A program made the translations under genes and the position numbers. Shown here piece after piece: positions 5,893 to 28,377 of a DNA stretch of 29,225 nucleotides. How positions within the stretch are numbered: the first letter of the stretch is position 1; the number at the start of each line of letters is the position of its first letter. Under the pieces are notes generated by a model. That model was given only the letters and a program-made list of their open reading frames with translations. It searched no databases and was not told the origin of the DNA. The stretch lies in IMG/VR virus record IMGVR_UViG_3300046007_003157, positions 1 through 29,225 of that record; one strand, written 5' to 3'. This stretch comes from a virus.

Positions 5893-6079
5893 CGACGGAT
5901 GCGCCATAGTCTGCACTGATTATCATTGGCTAGAGATAAACGACGATACGCCTACCAATGCCATGATGCTGCTGATAAACAAGCCTAGTGGAGTGCTGCA
6001 CAAGGGCACTCACAATAAGCTAAACAATTTTTTTACACATTGGGCACCATTGCCTACTTTTAAGAAAGATAAAAAATGA
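5873..6079 (+). CDS. DUF551-like small phage protein
   Basis: A 68-residue protein. The ending FFTHWAPLPTF matches the C-terminal signature of DUF551-type phage proteins (THWMPLP), and the middle (WLEINDDTP then MMLLINKPSG) fits the same short beta-rich fold. The start lies inside the preceding gene and has no convincing ribosome site, so it could begin later, but coupling by overlap is possible. Function unknown. Confidence 0.6.
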   Translation: MNHKPSSDGCAIVCTDYHWLEINDDTPTNAMMLLINKPSGVLHKGTHNKLNNFFTHWAPLPTFKKDKK

Positions 6080-7390: not shown

Positions 7391-7713
7391 TTGATTGCTG
7401 CCTTGATGTGTCCGGGGGATACGTTATTGATAGCCCACGCCAGCAGCATGGCCTCGTAATTTTCTTCGCGGTAAAGCCGCTCTAGGGTGTGGCTGATAGT
7501 CCACTCTCCGCGCTTGGGGAAGCCGAACTTGTGCACCATGAGCGTATGTGCCATCACCATGTCTGCAATCCAAACGAACAAGGTGTACGCGACAAGGAAG
7601 GGCCATGCGACAAGAGCCTTCCAGTTTTTAGCCTGCCACGGCCAGTAGAAGTTGTCCGCGAAGACAATCGCCGGGGCCACGTATGGCAGTAGCTTGATGA
7701 GGAAGTCGATCAT
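7387..7713 (-). CDS. Membrane protein of the lysis module
   Basis: A 108-residue protein with a hydrophobic N-terminal helix (2-18), a Trp-rich stretch, and a stronger membrane span at about residues 32-53. A soluble C-terminal half carries FPKRGEWTISHTLERL and ends in HIKAAIK. Its small size, two membrane segments and position just before the other lysis genes suggest a holin-like or lysis-control role. No family is certain. It is coupled by ATGA overlaps to both neighbours. Confidence 0.6.
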   Translation of the reverse strand: MIDFLIKLLPYVAPAIVFADNFYWPWQAKNWKALVAWPFLVAYTLFVWIADMVMAHTLMVHKFGFPKRGEWTISHTLERLYREENYEAMLLAWAINNVSPGHIKAAIK

Positions 7714-8093
7714 GGTATCTGCGCCCGCAGTGGCTCAATGGCTTGCTCAAGCTCCCACATGAGCTTGAAGCCGGGGTCTTTTTGGATTAGGTATGCAGTA
7801 GCAGCAGCTTTTGCTTGTTCCTGAGTCATGCCTGCGGCGAGTGCTTGGCCCTCTGGTGTTGTCAGCGCAATGGCTACGGTCTGCATAAGCAGCGCCTGCC
7901 TTGTAATCTTCGCCACTTTGTCAGCATTCGTCGCCTCTAGTGCGCGGATTTGATCTATTGGGCTAGGCGGCTCAGGTAGAACCCGGCGCGATTCTTGTAT
8001 AGCTTCAAACTCTTGAAGTGTTATCTCTACCCAGCCATCAGGCGCGGTTTCTGCAAGACAAGTATCGTTGTTTGGTGCTTTGAATATTGGCAT
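7710..8093 (-). CDS. Tail fibre assembly-like protein
   Basis: A 127-residue protein encoded 6 bases after the tail fibre gene, the usual place for fibre chaperones. The N-terminus (MPIFKAPNNDTCLAETAPDGWVE) is a compact beta segment. The rest is helical: a Pro-rich linker (LPEPPSPIDQIRALE), then an Ala-rich region (AAGMTQEQAKAAATAYL). I infer an assembly role from context and layout; direct homology to the classic Tfa family is not obvious. Confidence 0.55.
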   Translation of the reverse strand: MPIFKAPNNDTCLAETAPDGWVEITLQEFEAIQESRRVLPEPPSPIDQIRALEATNADKVAKITRQALLMQTVAIALTTPEGQALAAGMTQEQAKAAATAYLIQKDPGFKLMWELEQAIEPLRAQIP

Positions 8094-8099
8094 GATTTT

Positions 8100-9497
8100 T
8101 TACCTAAAAAATGCAACAGAGATACGTGGCACATCTACTAGAACGACTACAGATGTGCCAAATGTTTGGAAACGAAACGCCTTATTTGTTGGGGAAGTTC
8201 CAGTAGAATTACTGCCAAGAATTATTGACCTATCAGTCGTATCAAGCGCGTGTCCGACAAATGCGTAATTGGCATCTGGCATTGATGTTGAAAGGTTTAT
8301 TGTGTAATCTCCTGCTGCGTTTCTTGTCACCGAGGTAACGCCTCTACCCGCAGTTGGTGCGTTAGTACCGGCAGTGGTTCCGTTAAACACCGCCCAAGCC
8401 ACCAGACCCTGAGATTGAATTAGTGCTTGGCCTCCAGCGCCTTGGATGGTGCTAGGTGCTGTTGCCCATGTGCCTGCTGTAGCTTGTGTGCTTTCGATAT
8501 ATCCAATCACACGATAAGCAACATTAGTACGAGCAGTAGTTGAATACGCAACAGTGCCGCTATCGGCAGCGCCTGCGCCACCCTCTGCGGTTGTACTAAT
8601 TAACCCTGTTTCGGAAAGATCAACACCAGCAGCGTTTGCGGCGGCAAGCTCTATAGTGCCTGCGTTGTTCAGTGCCAATACTGCGATGCGAGATTGCACA
8701 GCGCTAGTAGTTCCAAGGGTTGATCCACTTGAAATAACTAAATTTGCAGGCGTACCTTTAACAAATGAAACAGCACCACTTCCAAGTGTACTAGAGCGAA
8801 ACTGCAAAGCTAAAGCCGAAGCGCTAATAGTTAAAGCATTAGCTGCAACCGATGCGCTGATAGGTTGAATTTGGCGAATTTCTGTTACTGGTGAAGTTAA
8901 GCCACCAAGACTGGCAATGTCTGTATTTGCACCAGACAAAGCAAAACCAGTTGTGACTACAGGGAATCCACTTGCACGCTGATATGCTACAACTTGCCAG
9001 CCACCAGAGATAGGTATTGCAATGGCACAATCATTTGCAACAGTGGTAATGTTTGCAGCACCCGGCAAAACCAAAGTCGCCGAATGAGTAAGCAATAAAG
9101 CGCCTGAAAATATTAAAAACCTTGGACCGTTGTAATTTGTGCCAAAAGATGTAATTGTTGTGGTTCCTGTTACTTGCAGGAAGTTAGACAATTGAGCGCC
9201 AATATCTGTAGTCGTGGCACTAGCAATGCTAGTCAATGTGCCTTGGCTAAAAAGCTGCTCAAATCGCAAAGATTGACCAGTGCCAACACCAGCGCCCAAG
9301 CCTGTGAGCTTATTTCCACCCATAGCCAAATTGCCTGTGATTGGCGTTTGACCGTCAGCGCTAACCGATTGTTGTAGTGCTGTGGCAACATCGTTAATAA
9401 GAGATTGCCAATCTGCGGCTGTGGCAGATACGCCATTTACCGCAGGATTCCAGCTATTTACTGGTAAACTGTACCCACCTGATCCGTTACGAGACAT
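8100..9497 (-). CDS. Tail fibre protein
   Basis: A 465-residue receptor-binding fibre. The N-terminus (MSRNGSGGYSLPVNSWNPAV, then TPITGNLAMGGNKLTGLGAG) is the familiar phage fibre attachment segment. The body is rich in Ser, Thr, Ala and Gly with short beta repeats, as in trimeric beta-helical fibres. The C-terminus (NKAFRFQTFGTS to VAFFR) is a compact beta tip. The ribosome site AAAGGAC precedes the start. No reverse transcriptase or template repeat is nearby, so there is no sign of targeted diversification. Confidence 0.85.
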   Translation of the reverse strand: MSRNGSGGYSLPVNSWNPAVNGVSATAADWQSLINDVATALQQSVSADGQTPITGNLAMGGNKLTGLGAGVGTGQSLRFEQLFSQGTLTSIASATTTDIGAQLSNFLQVTGTTTITSFGTNYNGPRFLIFSGALLLTHSATLVLPGAANITTVANDCAIAIPISGGWQVVAYQRASGFPVVTTGFALSGANTDIASLGGLTSPVTEIRQIQPISASVAANALTISASALALQFRSSTLGSGAVSFVKGTPANLVISSGSTLGTTSAVQSRIAVLALNNAGTIELAAANAAGVDLSETGLISTTAEGGAGAADSGTVAYSTTARTNVAYRVIGYIESTQATAGTWATAPSTIQGAGGQALIQSQGLVAWAVFNGTTAGTNAPTAGRGVTSVTRNAAGDYTINLSTSMPDANYAFVGHALDTTDRSIILGSNSTGTSPTNKAFRFQTFGTSVVVLVDVPRISVAFFR

Positions 9498-25108: not shown

Positions 25109-26449
25109 CTAAAACCTCTCGCGCTTTGTAGGTGTTTCAGCCCATAGTTTATCTAAACTTTGCGTGATTATGCGCCCATTTTGCCCTTTTATGGCAAATT
25201 CTGCGGGTTTTTCTGGTTCTTTTGGCTTGTTTTCACGCCACGCTATAGCCATCATGCGAAAACCGTCTGCGCAGTGGCTAGTAAAATCATGGCGTGGTTT
25301 ATCTCTAAACGCCTTTTTATCGTCATCCCATTCGCGCTGATATTGCTTTAATAGCTCTACCGCTTCCTCGGTTCTTTCCTTATCAAACCACACACGGGGC
25401 AGCATAGCTCTGGCGGCTTGGATACCATCTTGTACCGACAGGCTTGGAACTATTGCCATTTTTGCCACGGTTAAATGCTTGCCTAGCTGCTCAATAATAG
25501 ATTTTCCCCCACTAGCCAGAGTTTTTGCCCTTGCATCATGTGGCAACCAGTGGCGCTCGTACTTATAAGGTTTTGACAATACCGCGCTGGCGTAGTCATC
25601 AATAGATAGCCCTGAGCCGCTGTAATAATCAATACAGTGAATCTCAGTTGGCGTGACTTGATAGAACCATATCGCCGTGTCGTCGTGATAGCCCAAGTCC
25701 CATGCTGTAAAGACTGGAAGTTTCGGGTCGTAGTCCACCTCAGTGACGCGCCCTTGTTCTTCCAATACTCGCAACTCTTTGCCGTAGTACGCTCCAAGAA
25801 TAGCGGCCTCAAATGAGCACTCAAACTCTTGCTCATACTGGTCATCGCTCATGCCTTGGCTGGCATCTTTCAGTTCGTCAGGGCTAATCAGGCCGGAGGT
25901 GCTGGCCCTTATGGATGTTGCAAACCAGTTATCAGAAGCGTTAGCAGTTTTCCAAATGTCGTAAAAGAAGTTATGCCCCTTTGGTGTGCCAATGAATACA
26001 GCCCAGCCCCCACGGTCAGCAAGTAAGGGCCGGATGATTTCACCCCATACACGGGGGCGCATGTCTGCCACTTCGTCCAGTATCACCCCATCTAGGTACA
26101 TTCCTCGCAGTGCGTCAGGGTTATCTGCGCCAAATAGCCGAATTCTTGCGCCATTGAACAGTTCAACCCACAACTCTGAAGCGTTCGCGGTAGTACGCAC
26201 ATCAGCAGTGTATCTAAGCAGGTAATCCCATGCGATTGATTTTGCTTGCGAGTGATATGGGGCAATGTAAGCATAGCGCCCGTTTTCTTTTCCGTCTGTA
26301 TATGCCCGTTTTATCAGGTCATTGATGCAGGCAACTGTTTTGCCAGCACGCCTATGGGCCACAAGGCACGCCCAGCGAGTGCGCCTATTGTGAAAGTCTA
26401 CAAACGCGCCTCGGGGCTTATAGCCAATAATTATCCTTTTAACTTGCAT
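25109..26449 (-). CDS. terL: Terminase large subunit (packaging ATPase-nuclease)
   Basis: A 446-residue motor protein that pumps DNA into the procapsid and cuts it. The Walker A-like AHRRAGKT is at residues 31-38, Walker B GVILDE at 121-126, and the coupling motif GTPKG at 154-158. The nuclease domain starts at TAWDLGYHDD (Asp251 as a metal ligand), with HDFTSHCADGFRM near the end supplying the last acidic residue. The N-terminal 11 bases overlap the HNH gene, and only a weak ribosome site (AAAGAAAA) precedes the ATG. Confidence 0.93.
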   Translation of the reverse strand: MQVKRIIIGYKPRGAFVDFHNRRTRWACLVAHRRAGKTVACINDLIKRAYTDGKENGRYAYIAPYHSQAKSIAWDYLLRYTADVRTTANASELWVELFNGARIRLFGADNPDALRGMYLDGVILDEVADMRPRVWGEIIRPLLADRGGWAVFIGTPKGHNFFYDIWKTANASDNWFATSIRASTSGLISPDELKDASQGMSDDQYEQEFECSFEAAILGAYYGKELRVLEEQGRVTEVDYDPKLPVFTAWDLGYHDDTAIWFYQVTPTEIHCIDYYSGSGLSIDDYASAVLSKPYKYERHWLPHDARAKTLASGGKSIIEQLGKHLTVAKMAIVPSLSVQDGIQAARAMLPRVWFDKERTEEAVELLKQYQREWDDDKKAFRDKPRHDFTSHCADGFRMMAIAWRENKPKEPEKPAEFAIKGQNGRIITQSLDKLWAETPTKRERF

Positions 26450-26831
26450 TTTTCTTTTTGAACTGGCCTTTTGTTTTGCCTAGTACGTAGGTTGAATGCA
26501 GTAGATTTTGCGATCTAGTGACTATCTCCAAGTTGCTCAATTCGTTATTGTGTTTGTTTCCATCTTTGTGATTAACGCACATGTCGCCAATTTCACCTAT
26601 GAAGGATTCCACAACCAACCTATGGATGTAGTAGTTTTTGCCGCGAAACAAAAACCTTATCCCCAAATAACTTCCAGCTTTGTATGTAGACAAAATTTTG
26701 CCTGATTTTTTTCTTTCGCAAAGCTGACCCCATCTAGACCGAATTATAGAAACAGAATCTTTTGATCTGACTCTACCAAGGCTGCTTATTTCGTGGTTTT
26801 CATGCCCTTTGATTGGCTTCCAATCTTCCAT
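26439..26831 (-). CDS. HNH homing endonuclease with NUMOD4
   Basis: A 130-residue free-standing nuclease. The ATG at 26831 is chosen because GGAG lies 6 bases upstream and NUMOD4 proteins start this way; an ATG at 26843 is also in frame. NUMOD4: WKPIKGHENHEISSLGRVRS (4-23). HNH core: His70, VNHKDGNKHNN (86-96) and LSNLEIVTRSQN. The Lys-rich tail runs 11 bases into terL. It is richer in A+T than its neighbours, which suggests recent insertion between the two terminase genes. Confidence 0.9.
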   Translation of the reverse strand: MEDWKPIKGHENHEISSLGRVRSKDSVSIIRSRWGQLCERKKSGKILSTYKAGSYLGIRFLFRGKNYYIHRLVVESFIGEIGDMCVNHKDGNKHNNELSNLEIVTRSQNLLHSTYVLGKTKGQFKKKNAS

Positions 26832-26860
26832 GTGAATCTCCATGAATGAATCCAGAAAGA

Positions 26861-26909
26861 TGTGGCAGGCGGGGATTCAATCCGCTTTTCGCTCCGTCGA
26901 GCTATCCAC
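26861..26909 (-). other. tRNA-like remnant lacking an anticodon arm
   Basis: Between terS and the HNH gene the - strand reads like a tRNA without its middle: 5' GTGG pairs with 3' CCAC (acceptor-like). A D-arm-like TAGCTCGACGGAGC has GCTC/GAGC paired. A T-arm-like GCGGATTGAATCCCCGC follows after only a few A residues. The T-loop has G where tRNAs carry C56, and no CCA is encoded. It is not a functional tRNA gene; it may be a relic, or a structural or homing site. Confidence 0.4.
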
Positions 26910-26923
26910 CCCTATATTTTAAC

Positions 26924-27270: not shown

Positions 27271-27447
27271 TCAATTATAGGCATGGATTGTGCTATGGGC
27301 AACCGCCTCCGCTCTTCTAAAGCGCTTATATTGTCTACTGTCTAGCCATATCGCGTCTATATTTATTCGTTTGCGGTTTTTCTTAAAATGCTTCGACATT
27401 CCAGCAACACATAGTCTTAGACCGCTTATCCACTGTTTTCTTCGCAT
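27271..27447 (-). CDS. Small basic protein, paralog 1 of the terminase-flanking pair
   Basis: A 58-residue ORF between the structured segment and terS. The product begins MRRKQWISGLRLCVAGMSKH and contains INIDA and RQYKRFRR. It aligns without gaps over 40 residues with the protein at 24920-25108 (18 identical), which is good evidence that it is a real gene. It is strongly basic in its first half. The ribosome site is weak (AGAAG). Function unknown; the pair brackets terS-HNH-terL. Confidence 0.65.
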   Translation of the reverse strand: MRRKQWISGLRLCVAGMSKHFKKNRKRINIDAIWLDSRQYKRFRRAEAVAHSTIHAYN

Positions 27448-27460
27448 ATTGCTTCTTTGT

Positions 27461-28060
27461 TGATTAAGCTGGGCCAGTGCTGATCTCTGGCATTGACTCT
27501 CTCGTACTATTTCAGCGGGCCTAGTGGGTCACAGCGCCGCAATGTGCGCATCAGCCTGCGCATTCCAGCTTATGGGTAGAGACTACTTACTAGCTATGCG
27601 TTTACCGGCTCAAGCATGGCCGCGCAATCATCACTTTCAACCAATCTCTACTCATAAGCTGATAGCGCCAGCACTATACCGCTGGACGCATATATCTCGA
27701 CTTTCCGGGTTTTGGTGCACCGCCGCCCTTCCTAGTAATATGCCTCACGTTGTTGGGTGAATAACGGCCTTGCGGGGTATTCATAGCCCTCACTATCATG
27801 AAAGCGGGCAGGGCTTGATACCTGCTAAAGCGGCATGAGTAAAGTGCATCATCGTTATCACACTTTAGCTCTGCAAGTAGCTAGCTTGCTTTTTATGCCT
27901 TACCTGCTGTAGTCAATAACGCATTACCACAGTCTGTAGCGTTTCCTTCAACGCCGCCGCTTTGATGATAGCCCCCGCTACTTTGCCGGGGTGGTCATGA
28001 TGGCGACCGGGCATTCCCAATCCTACAAATATCCCGCTACGCAGTTTATTTGCTTAACCA
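27461..28060 (-). ncRNA. Candidate 600-nt structured phage RNA
   Basis: This is the only long gene-free stretch in the window, and it fills the gap between two - strand genes almost exactly. Its ends pair: 28052-28060 with 27461-27469 (9 bp). Nested inside are 28033-28039 with 27513-27519 (7 bp) and 28023-28029 with 27933-27939 (7 bp), then a hairpin 27926-27932/27907-27913 (7 bp). Each of these four helices has one G.U that would be A.C on the other strand, so the RNA is probably - strand. Further stems are 27840-27846/27861-27867, 27785-27790/27810-27815, 27758-27763/27778-27783 with a GCAA tetraloop, 27665-27672/27681-27689 and a 16-bp arm 27566-27581/27646-27661. Size and phage setting resemble ROOL/GOLLD RNAs, but class membership is untested. 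A cis-acting late-operon or packaging element is also possible. Confidence 0.6.
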
Positions 28061-28065
28061 TCAGC

Positions 28066-28377
28066 CTACATTGTAGCACTAATTCCAAGCGCCCAAACAC
28101 TATTTATTATGCATTTTGGCGGTTTCGGTTTTCTTACTGGCCTGACTGCTGCGCTCTTGTGTATCTTGTTTTGCCAATCAGGCGCACTTGTGTAAATCCT
28201 GCGATCTCCGCTATTGTCCACAGTGGCAAGCCCTAGCTTTACAGCCCTTCGCAGATATGTAGACGTGTTTGTCGGGTCTAGTATGCCCATATGCATGGCT
28301 ACGTGGCTGTATTGGCTTGGGCCTTCGCGGTCTAGTATTTCCATTGCTGCAATTATTCGTTTGCCTACTGGCCTCAT
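28066..28377 (-). CDS. Winged-helix DNA-binding protein
   Basis: A 103-residue probable regulator. Residues 1-70 fit a winged helix: an N-terminal helix (KRIIAAMEILDREGPSQYSH), a recognition-helix region (TSTYLRRAVKLGLATV) and a beta wing (NSGDRRIYTSAPDW). A basic linker (VRPVRKPKPPK) and the short INSVWALG end, seen in other phage regulators, follow. It starts one base after the alpha-CTD-like gene stops and directly precedes the structured segment. A late-transcription role is inferred. Confidence 0.7.
   Translation of the reverse strand: MRPVGKRIIAAMEILDREGPSQYSHVAMHMGILDPTNTSTYLRRAVKLGLATVDNSGDRRIYTSAPDWQNKIHKSAAVRPVRKPKPPKCIINSVWALGISATM

Follow-up and report, generated by a model that had tools for sequence, protein, structure and literature searches.

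Evidence for a modular structured phage RNA with tRNA-like and loop-complementary clamp modules and exchangeable inserts

In the stretch of viral DNA studied here (IMG/VR record IMGVR_UViG_3300046007_003157, 29,225 nucleotides, termed the window as a whole), a gene-free segment almost certainly encodes a conserved structured RNA on the minus strand (Table 1). The earlier proposal of a large structured phage RNA read from this strand is upheld by covariation and by the homologues that unrelated phages carry, and both secondary structure and strand are well supported. The segment matches no family in Rfam 15 and, together with its homologues, seems to represent a widespread superfamily of structured phage RNAs that has so far been unannotated. 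Judged from sequence comparison, we consider it rather probable that the RNA acts in trans, and we lean slightly toward the fuller reading, in which the segment is a gene for a large non-coding RNA that is modular, acts in trans and displays swappable inserts on clamps.

Table 1. Features of the RNA-encoding segment, with positions in the window and the basis of assignment.
Feature	Position	Strand	Basis
Gene-free segment, putative structured RNA gene	27448-28065	-	gene calls, fold, homologues
Motif AGGATTGGGAATGCCCGGTCGCC, GGG/CCC hairpin and its conserved flanking strands	28002-28024	-	GGATTGGGNNTRCCCGGTCGC scan
Small hairpin CCCCGGCAAAGTAGCGGGG, directly before class I closing helix	27973-27991	-	sequence comparison
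Class I (tRNA-like) module	27792-27972	-	covariance model, covariation
Hairpin A, D-arm-like, GCGTT-GAAGGA-AACGC	27939-27954	-	covariation, model
Variable insert of 113 nt that separates hairpins A and B	27826-27938	-	comparison with L045
Hairpin B, T-arm-like, GCAGG-TATCAAGC-CCTGC, abuts P1	27808-27825	-	18-mer scan, covariation
Block ACCCAACAACG...GCTATCA, conserved with L045	27660-27759	-	alignment
Class II module	27465-27572	-	blastn to CASP1/PhiPLPE, covariation, further members
Class II first hairpin AUGCGCAGGCUGAUGCGC	27562-27545	-	
Class II conserved core ACUAGGCCCGCUGAAAUAGNACGAGAG	27525-27499	-	
Class II second hairpin GCCAG(AGAUCAGCA)CUGGC	27491-27473	-	

Location, strand and searches of RNA catalogues

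The segment is bordered by a minus-strand gene for 103 amino acids (28066-28377), the stop of which lies just above it, and by a minus-strand open reading frame of 58 amino acids (27271-27447) that starts just below it. Further downstream come a terS-like gene, one for an HNH endonuclease, and terL. The position of the gene-free stretch of 600 nucleotides claimed in an earlier note on this DNA is confirmed, and no gene of its own was found inside. With regard to a protein-coding signal, which the same note had set against an RNA, the homologues keep the RNA pairing and not the reading frame.

Folding of the minus strand surpassed 20 of 20 dinucleotide shuffles (z -3.9). As the plus strand folds nearly as well (z -3.45), folding energy alone leaves the strand unsettled. 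The minus-strand assignment is, on the other hand, corroborated by a covariance model (R1) derived from 69 other copies of the class I module described below, which matches the window on this strand only (27964-27800, 70.2 bits, E 7.5e-13) and thereby places the window copy among the class I clamp RNAs; the E-values of R1 are rough, by too little to matter for this match. A 9-bp pairing between the two ends of the segment (28060-28052 with 27469-27461), which had also been claimed, is indeed part of the minimum-energy fold but finds support in no homologue. It shares bases with the covariation-backed closing helix of the 3' domain, i.e., the class II closing helix (27572-27565 with 27472-27465), and the end-to-end helix therefore appears to be an alternative pairing at best.

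No Rfam 15 family matched the segment at E-values up to 10, so that the suggested relation to ROOL or GOLLD is not supported. Models for GOLLD and ROOL were likewise without match in the homologues L004-L006, L169, L230-L232 and L234-L238, and an Rfam scan of the homologues returned only adjacent tRNAs and tmRNAs in addition to weak matches below gathering scores. ARAGORN detected no tRNA anywhere in the window, tmRNA models did not match within the segment, and the class I domain was recognised neither by ARAGORN nor by the Rfam models for tRNA (RF00005) and tmRNA. The int-alpA model (RF02996) found no match inside the segment; its match at 26840-26912 on the minus strand (38.8 bits, above the gathering score) lies about 550 bases away between the HNH and the terS-like genes, and it is this int-alpA RNA that had been taken for a tRNA-like remnant. 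No earlier description was encountered in the open-access literature. On the basis of Rfam 15 and this literature, the RNA is probably novel.

Homologues and the two module classes

Among named phages, blastn matched the 3' part of the segment to Alcaligenes phage CASP1 (E 7e-21) and Iodobacter phage PhiPLPE (E 2e-15) and its middle to Alcaligenes phage QDWS595 (E 4e-5). The matched stretch is intergenic in all three phages, the DNA of which is otherwise unrelated, with tRNA genes following it in CASP1. Megablast with 9 kb around the segment returned no match among named phages, which indicates that the RNA modules alone are common to these phages and the window. In IMG/VR, an 18-mer from the middle of the segment (GCAGGTATCAAGCCCTGC, hairpin B) occurs exactly in 70 viral contigs, with about 2 expected by chance, and a 21-mer from the 3' part has exact matches in 20 contigs. 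Across the 18-mer contig set, GCGTGGAWGGACACGC recurs upstream of the 18-mer, and outside these two elements the flanks are complementary though their sequence varies from contig to contig.

The class I module consists of a closing helix (P1), a CG linker, hairpin A (GCGUG-GAWGGA-CACGC), an insert, hairpin B (consensus GCNGG-UNUCRARY-CCNGC) and, directly after the latter, the second strand of P1. In the window, P1 extends over 16 positions with one C.C mismatch (27972-27957 with 27807-27792), and hairpin A carries a compensatory U-A for the G-C of most copies. At least 120 matches were obtained in IMG/VR for each of the two module types, for class I by a scan with hairpin A alone and for class II with the 22-mer described below. 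In a set of 69 class I copies, from which the window was excluded and which was chosen partly by P1 complementarity, 99.4% of cells are paired, 13 of 18 pairs are changed on both sides, and the covariation score amounts to 0.582 as compared to 0.119 for shuffled and at most 0.10 for slid partners. When copies were selected by hairpin B only and not by P1, 48 of 53 paired in at least seven of eight P1 positions, while shuffled partners averaged 4.4. The length of P1 is bimodal, with 8-10 bp in most isolated copies and 15-16 bp in several multi-module RNAs. R1 detected no class I copy in loci containing motif A only or in class II loci from Pseudomonas, Enterobacteria and other named phages. Two variants were noted, one with the loop pair GAAAGCGGA and GGUAGCGU (L220, 2503-2656) and one with AGUAGCGC in the B loop (L033, 4746-4886), which suggests that the two class I loops change together.

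The order of parts in class I is that of tRNA: an acceptor-like helix, a 2-nt linker, a D-arm-like hairpin, an insert and a T-arm-like hairpin that abuts the acceptor-like helix. This order, together with a conserved GG in the D-like loop and the UNUCRARY of the T-like loop, establishes a tRNA-like fold at the level of secondary structure by covariation. An insert that replaces the anticodon arm is likewise a feature of tmRNA. Differences are also evident. The T-like loop has eight nucleotides, one base more than the UUCRANY of tRNA T-loops, the D-like stem of 5 bp carries a 6-nt loop, the closing helix comprises 8-10 or 15-17 bp, and neither a conserved CCA end nor a conserved terminator was found 3' of it. 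A contact between the D-like and T-like loops, comparable to the tRNA elbow, may be expected from the order of parts.

The link to tRNA that had been guessed from the window thus holds for the topology of the core domain, and some copies in fact lie between tRNA genes. Class I copies reside between tRNA genes in L029 and L220, in L029 as two copies between tRNA-Leu, tRNA-Lys and tRNA-Arg. Ochrobactrum phage POI1126 features tRNA-Met, a class I module and tRNA-Gln in succession, and class II modules occur in a tRNA setting in L012/L015. The copies in the tRNA islands of L029, L220 and L012 are read on the tRNA strand. A tRNA on the same strand within 500 nt was present for 15 of 119 class I copies, as compared to 3.3% of random positions. 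Canonical T-arms were detected inside five of 138 inserts with 0.045 expected, and in Pseudanabaena phage Pan3 the insert harbours a sequence resembling tRNA. L205 carries on its minus strand (at about 8840-8955 in reverse-complement numbering) an embedded tRNA-like element whose insert is long and whose acceptor stem is extended by CCATCAT/ATGATGG, the end sequence of the neighbouring clamp modules. Genes for tmRNA were noticed near the modular RNA in QDWS595 (L006, 572-948, tag ANDNVYAAAA) and Bordetella phage PHB04 (L235, 1138-1475); both are matched by the permuted-tmRNA model RF04321.

Class II follows the same plan with other hairpins, i.e., helix, hairpin, insert, hairpin and helix. In the window, CASP1, PhiPLPE and about ten further distinct sequences, conservation extends to the insert (UGCGGCGC ... 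ACUAGGCCCGCUGAAAUAGNACGAGAG). In an alignment of 12 sequences, 96.0% of cells are paired, 16 of 33 pairs are doubly changed, and covariation reaches 0.426 as compared to 0.130 after shuffling. The derived model (R2) includes the window row, so that its score for the window is not independent. The loops of the two hairpins are complementary to each other (GCUGAU/AUCAGC), and PhiPLPE shows concerted changes in the pair (ACUGAU/AUCAGU); on these grounds the loops probably kiss. In the window, the hairpins with complementary loops are enclosed by the covarying closing helix. Among the matches listed for a 22-mer from the first hairpin, the second hairpin follows within 400 nt in 90 of 128 cases, with about 1.3% expected by chance, and for the 76 distinct class II matches listed, pairing of the closing helix outside the probe averages 4.38 of 5 positions versus 3.07 when shuffled (never above 3.38).

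All or part of a 55-nt probe of the class II junction is matched in 220 named phage records. In the lambdoid phages HK620 and HK633, class II is situated between pR'/qut and the holin gene, in Aeromonas phage ST4 it occupies part of a kilobase that is devoid of genes and next to three tRNA genes, and in PHB04 it lies in a gene-poor region of 2.5 kb together with tRNA and tmRNA genes. Of 5,426 complete genomes of E. coli, 108 contain the HK620 form, and the matches listed overlap no annotated feature.

Mosaic architecture, exchange of inserts and distribution

As judged from a shared motif, a block in common with L045 and the combinations of class I and class II, the window RNA is a mosaic of modules. 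The motif AGGATTGGGAATGCCCGGTCGCC is common to unrelated viral contigs, in several of them near terminase genes, and its portion GGATTGGGNNTRCCCGGTCGC occurs, mostly alone, in 11 viral contigs with about 1 expected. A 30-nt probe of the conserved block between class I and class II had L045 as its only match in viral_contigs, and hairpins similar to CCCCGGCAAAGTAGCGGGG are found at the equivalent place in L046, L069, L075, L082 and L205. Class I is followed by class II after a gap of a single nucleotide in PhiPLPE, L073, L123, L205 and the bacterial genome locus L242, and at a spacing of 218-227 nt in L176 and the window. In L169, tRNA-Arg is preceded by a pair of class I modules and by other domains that have the same end sequence. 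Both module types are encountered singly, within phage tRNA islands and side by side.

Some observations on neighbouring elements may be added. In L221-L227, contigs that lack class I, GGATTGGGNNTRCCCGGTCGC stands alone as a hairpin, the outer stem of which varies and is for the most part complementary, and in L221 this hairpin is located shortly before a terS-like gene. AATCCATACGGTCGGTGGAAGTCCGAGCCGGAGACGTAACCGGCACCCT is nearly identical in two unrelated phages (L169, about 6010-6058; L235, about 2183-2231) and is probably a further module. The TerL proteins of the window and L045 differ and have an identical C-terminal tail, KPTEFAIKGQNGRIITQSLDKLWAETPTKRERF (25112-25210 and 7670-7768, respectively, both minus strand), a sign of recombination within terL.

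Comparison of related loci points to an exchange of inserts that is frequent but not constant, in which closing helix and hairpins are kept and the insert is swapped as a whole. The window and its close relative L045 have P1 and the hairpins in common and a flanking protein that is 82% identical, and their inserts (113 and 52 nt) are 36% alike as compared to 37% after shuffling. Inserts no closer than shuffled sequences were likewise observed for L133/L211 with flanks of 76-83% identity, for L065/L176 with 5' flanks of 91% identity and for L035/L058/L080, the cores of which are identical. The reverse case is represented by L085/L095, where inserts of 82% identity reside under different closing helices (P1 1/8), and by L074/L211, which share an insert and have different closing helices. 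In other related pairs the insert has been retained (97% in L117/L215, 82% in L055/L186).

The modules are limited mostly to phages and prophages. Among 20 whole phage records, 15 contain one class I copy and three contain two. In bacteria, a 20-mer of hairpin B was found in only ten contigs in 257 Gb, the three copies inspected lie beside terminase, portal or repressor genes, and five of 300 genomes of one bacterial order possess a class I copy; this rarity and the phage genes in the neighbourhood fit prophages. Neighbouring genes vary and encode terminase, portal, primase, NinG, primosomal and other proteins, and annotation with PHROGs revealed no constant neighbour. Many isolated class I copies occupy tight gaps between co-directional protein genes, as in L167, where the copy starts 19 nt after the portal gene and ends 15 nt before the next gene. 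A transposon-associated guide RNA was considered on account of a 'transposase' beside the copy in Caulobacter phage DMCA and was rejected, as other copies are without such a gene.

Possible functions and comparison with known systems

A separate transcript, tertiary contacts, action in trans and the nature of a partner are what we infer from the features described. Each clamp module would be composed of a closing helix and two hairpins, with loops opposed to one another, that hold a variable insert between them. The class I hairpins would correspond to D-arm and T-arm, with the T-arm-like hairpin abutting the closing helix in the manner of the acceptor/T stack of tRNA; in class II, the complementary loops would kiss. 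The clamp would set the geometry and present the insert, recombination would replace the insert, and the insert would determine which partner is bound or decoyed. A tRNA-like elbow could dock the RNA at sites for tRNA, be it on processing or cleaving enzymes, including those of host defences, or on the translation machinery. A constant clamp with an exchanged tip is the pattern expected of a displayed variable part in a host-virus conflict, and the tRNA-like clamp points to tRNA-handling partners. Evasion of tRNA-targeting defences by phage tRNAs is already known (PMC10264068, PMC11555353). A tRNA-directed decoy or docking role is proposed as a tentative idea, and similarly speculative is the notion that tRNA-elbow clamps with interchangeable RNA cassettes are swapped in an arms race against host factors, among which tRNA-cleaving or tRNA-handling defence proteins would be the most likely. 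If true, cassette clamps would be the equivalent, made of RNA, of those protein scaffolds that bear hypervariable tips.

Several observations speak against a trans-acting display RNA: 104 of the 119 class I copies have no recognised tRNA within 500 nt, no promoter stands out above chance before the window copy, the B loop and the 3' end depart from tRNA as outlined above, and the replacement of inserts is not constant (L117/L215 and L055/L186). The copies squeezed between co-directional genes would suit a cis-acting mRNA element equally well, a possibility to which we assign low but appreciable weight. The tRNA-like module would then serve as a processing or stability signal in late mRNAs with the insert as filler, and RNase P or another tRNA-processing enzyme would cut the polycistronic message at the acceptor/T-like stack, or the fold would block exonucleases. 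In agreement with such a signal, the window copy also lies between genes of the same strand, and the closing helix of 8-10 bp adjoining a 5-bp T-arm-like stem, present in 67 of 119 copies, comes near to a pre-tRNA. On the other hand, neighbouring gene and distance to the start codon are both variable, closing helices of 15-17 bp and arrays of several modules exceed the size known for processing signals, whole-insert replacement beside conserved flanks is unexpected of filler, and members also occur within tRNA arrays.

It is improbable that the segment specifies a structural RNA in which the clamps serve as assembly joints of a homo-oligomer or cage, in the manner of GOLLD and ROOL. Size class, the setting in phages and tRNA islands and the interacting loops do resemble these RNAs, and the repeated end sequence of adjoining modules (CACCAUCA/UGAUGGUG in L205 and L169) would allow strand exchange, be it among modules or among molecules. 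However, the GOLLD and ROOL models do not match, many copies consist of just one module of about 100-150 nt and are too small for such cages, and kissing pairs suit an intramolecular contact just as well.

Very hard to sustain is the alternative raised in the earlier note, a cis-acting element next to terS that would serve packaging or antitermination where the late operon begins: some members do lie near terminase genes, in the window and a few other cases, or in the late leader of HK620 and HK633, but the domains also accompany portal, primase, NinG and primosomal genes or reside in tRNA islands, and antitermination has no need of a hypervariable insert. Equally remote is a DNA-level element, in which the closing-helix sequences would be recombination or replication sites and their pairing incidental; modules are indeed shuffled between phages with ends that are often alike (CACCATCA...TGATGGTG), but the conservation of unpaired D-loop-like and T-loop-like bases and the covarying class II loops argue for RNA, G.U pairs of several copies would be mismatches on the other strand, and the tRNA-island copies follow the strand of the tRNAs.

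Returning to the preferred reading of a modular trans-acting RNA, members in culturable phages render its function accessible to deletion tests, and the covariance models provide a ready means of annotating clamp RNAs. Phages and prophages also encode GOLLD and ROOL, large structured RNAs of unknown function that form RNA-only cages and frequently lie close to tRNA genes (PMC12286853). In GOLLD the 3' part is conserved and the 5' part variable, and its occurrence in a tRNA cluster together with a gene for an HNH endonuclease has been reported (PMC6582537). An HNH gene is also located near the RNA in the window (26442-26843, minus strand) and in PhiPLPE (L005, 1461-1958). Unlike in GOLLD and ROOL, the unit is here a clamp of about 100 nt that is also found alone. 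The int-alpA RNA present in the window represents a separate family of 71 nt and is no part of the clamp RNA. With regard to late leader RNAs of the lambda 6S type, class II of HK620 and HK633 is similarly positioned between pR' and the late terminator/holin gene; unlike such a leader, class II is structured, modular and conserved in other phage types too.
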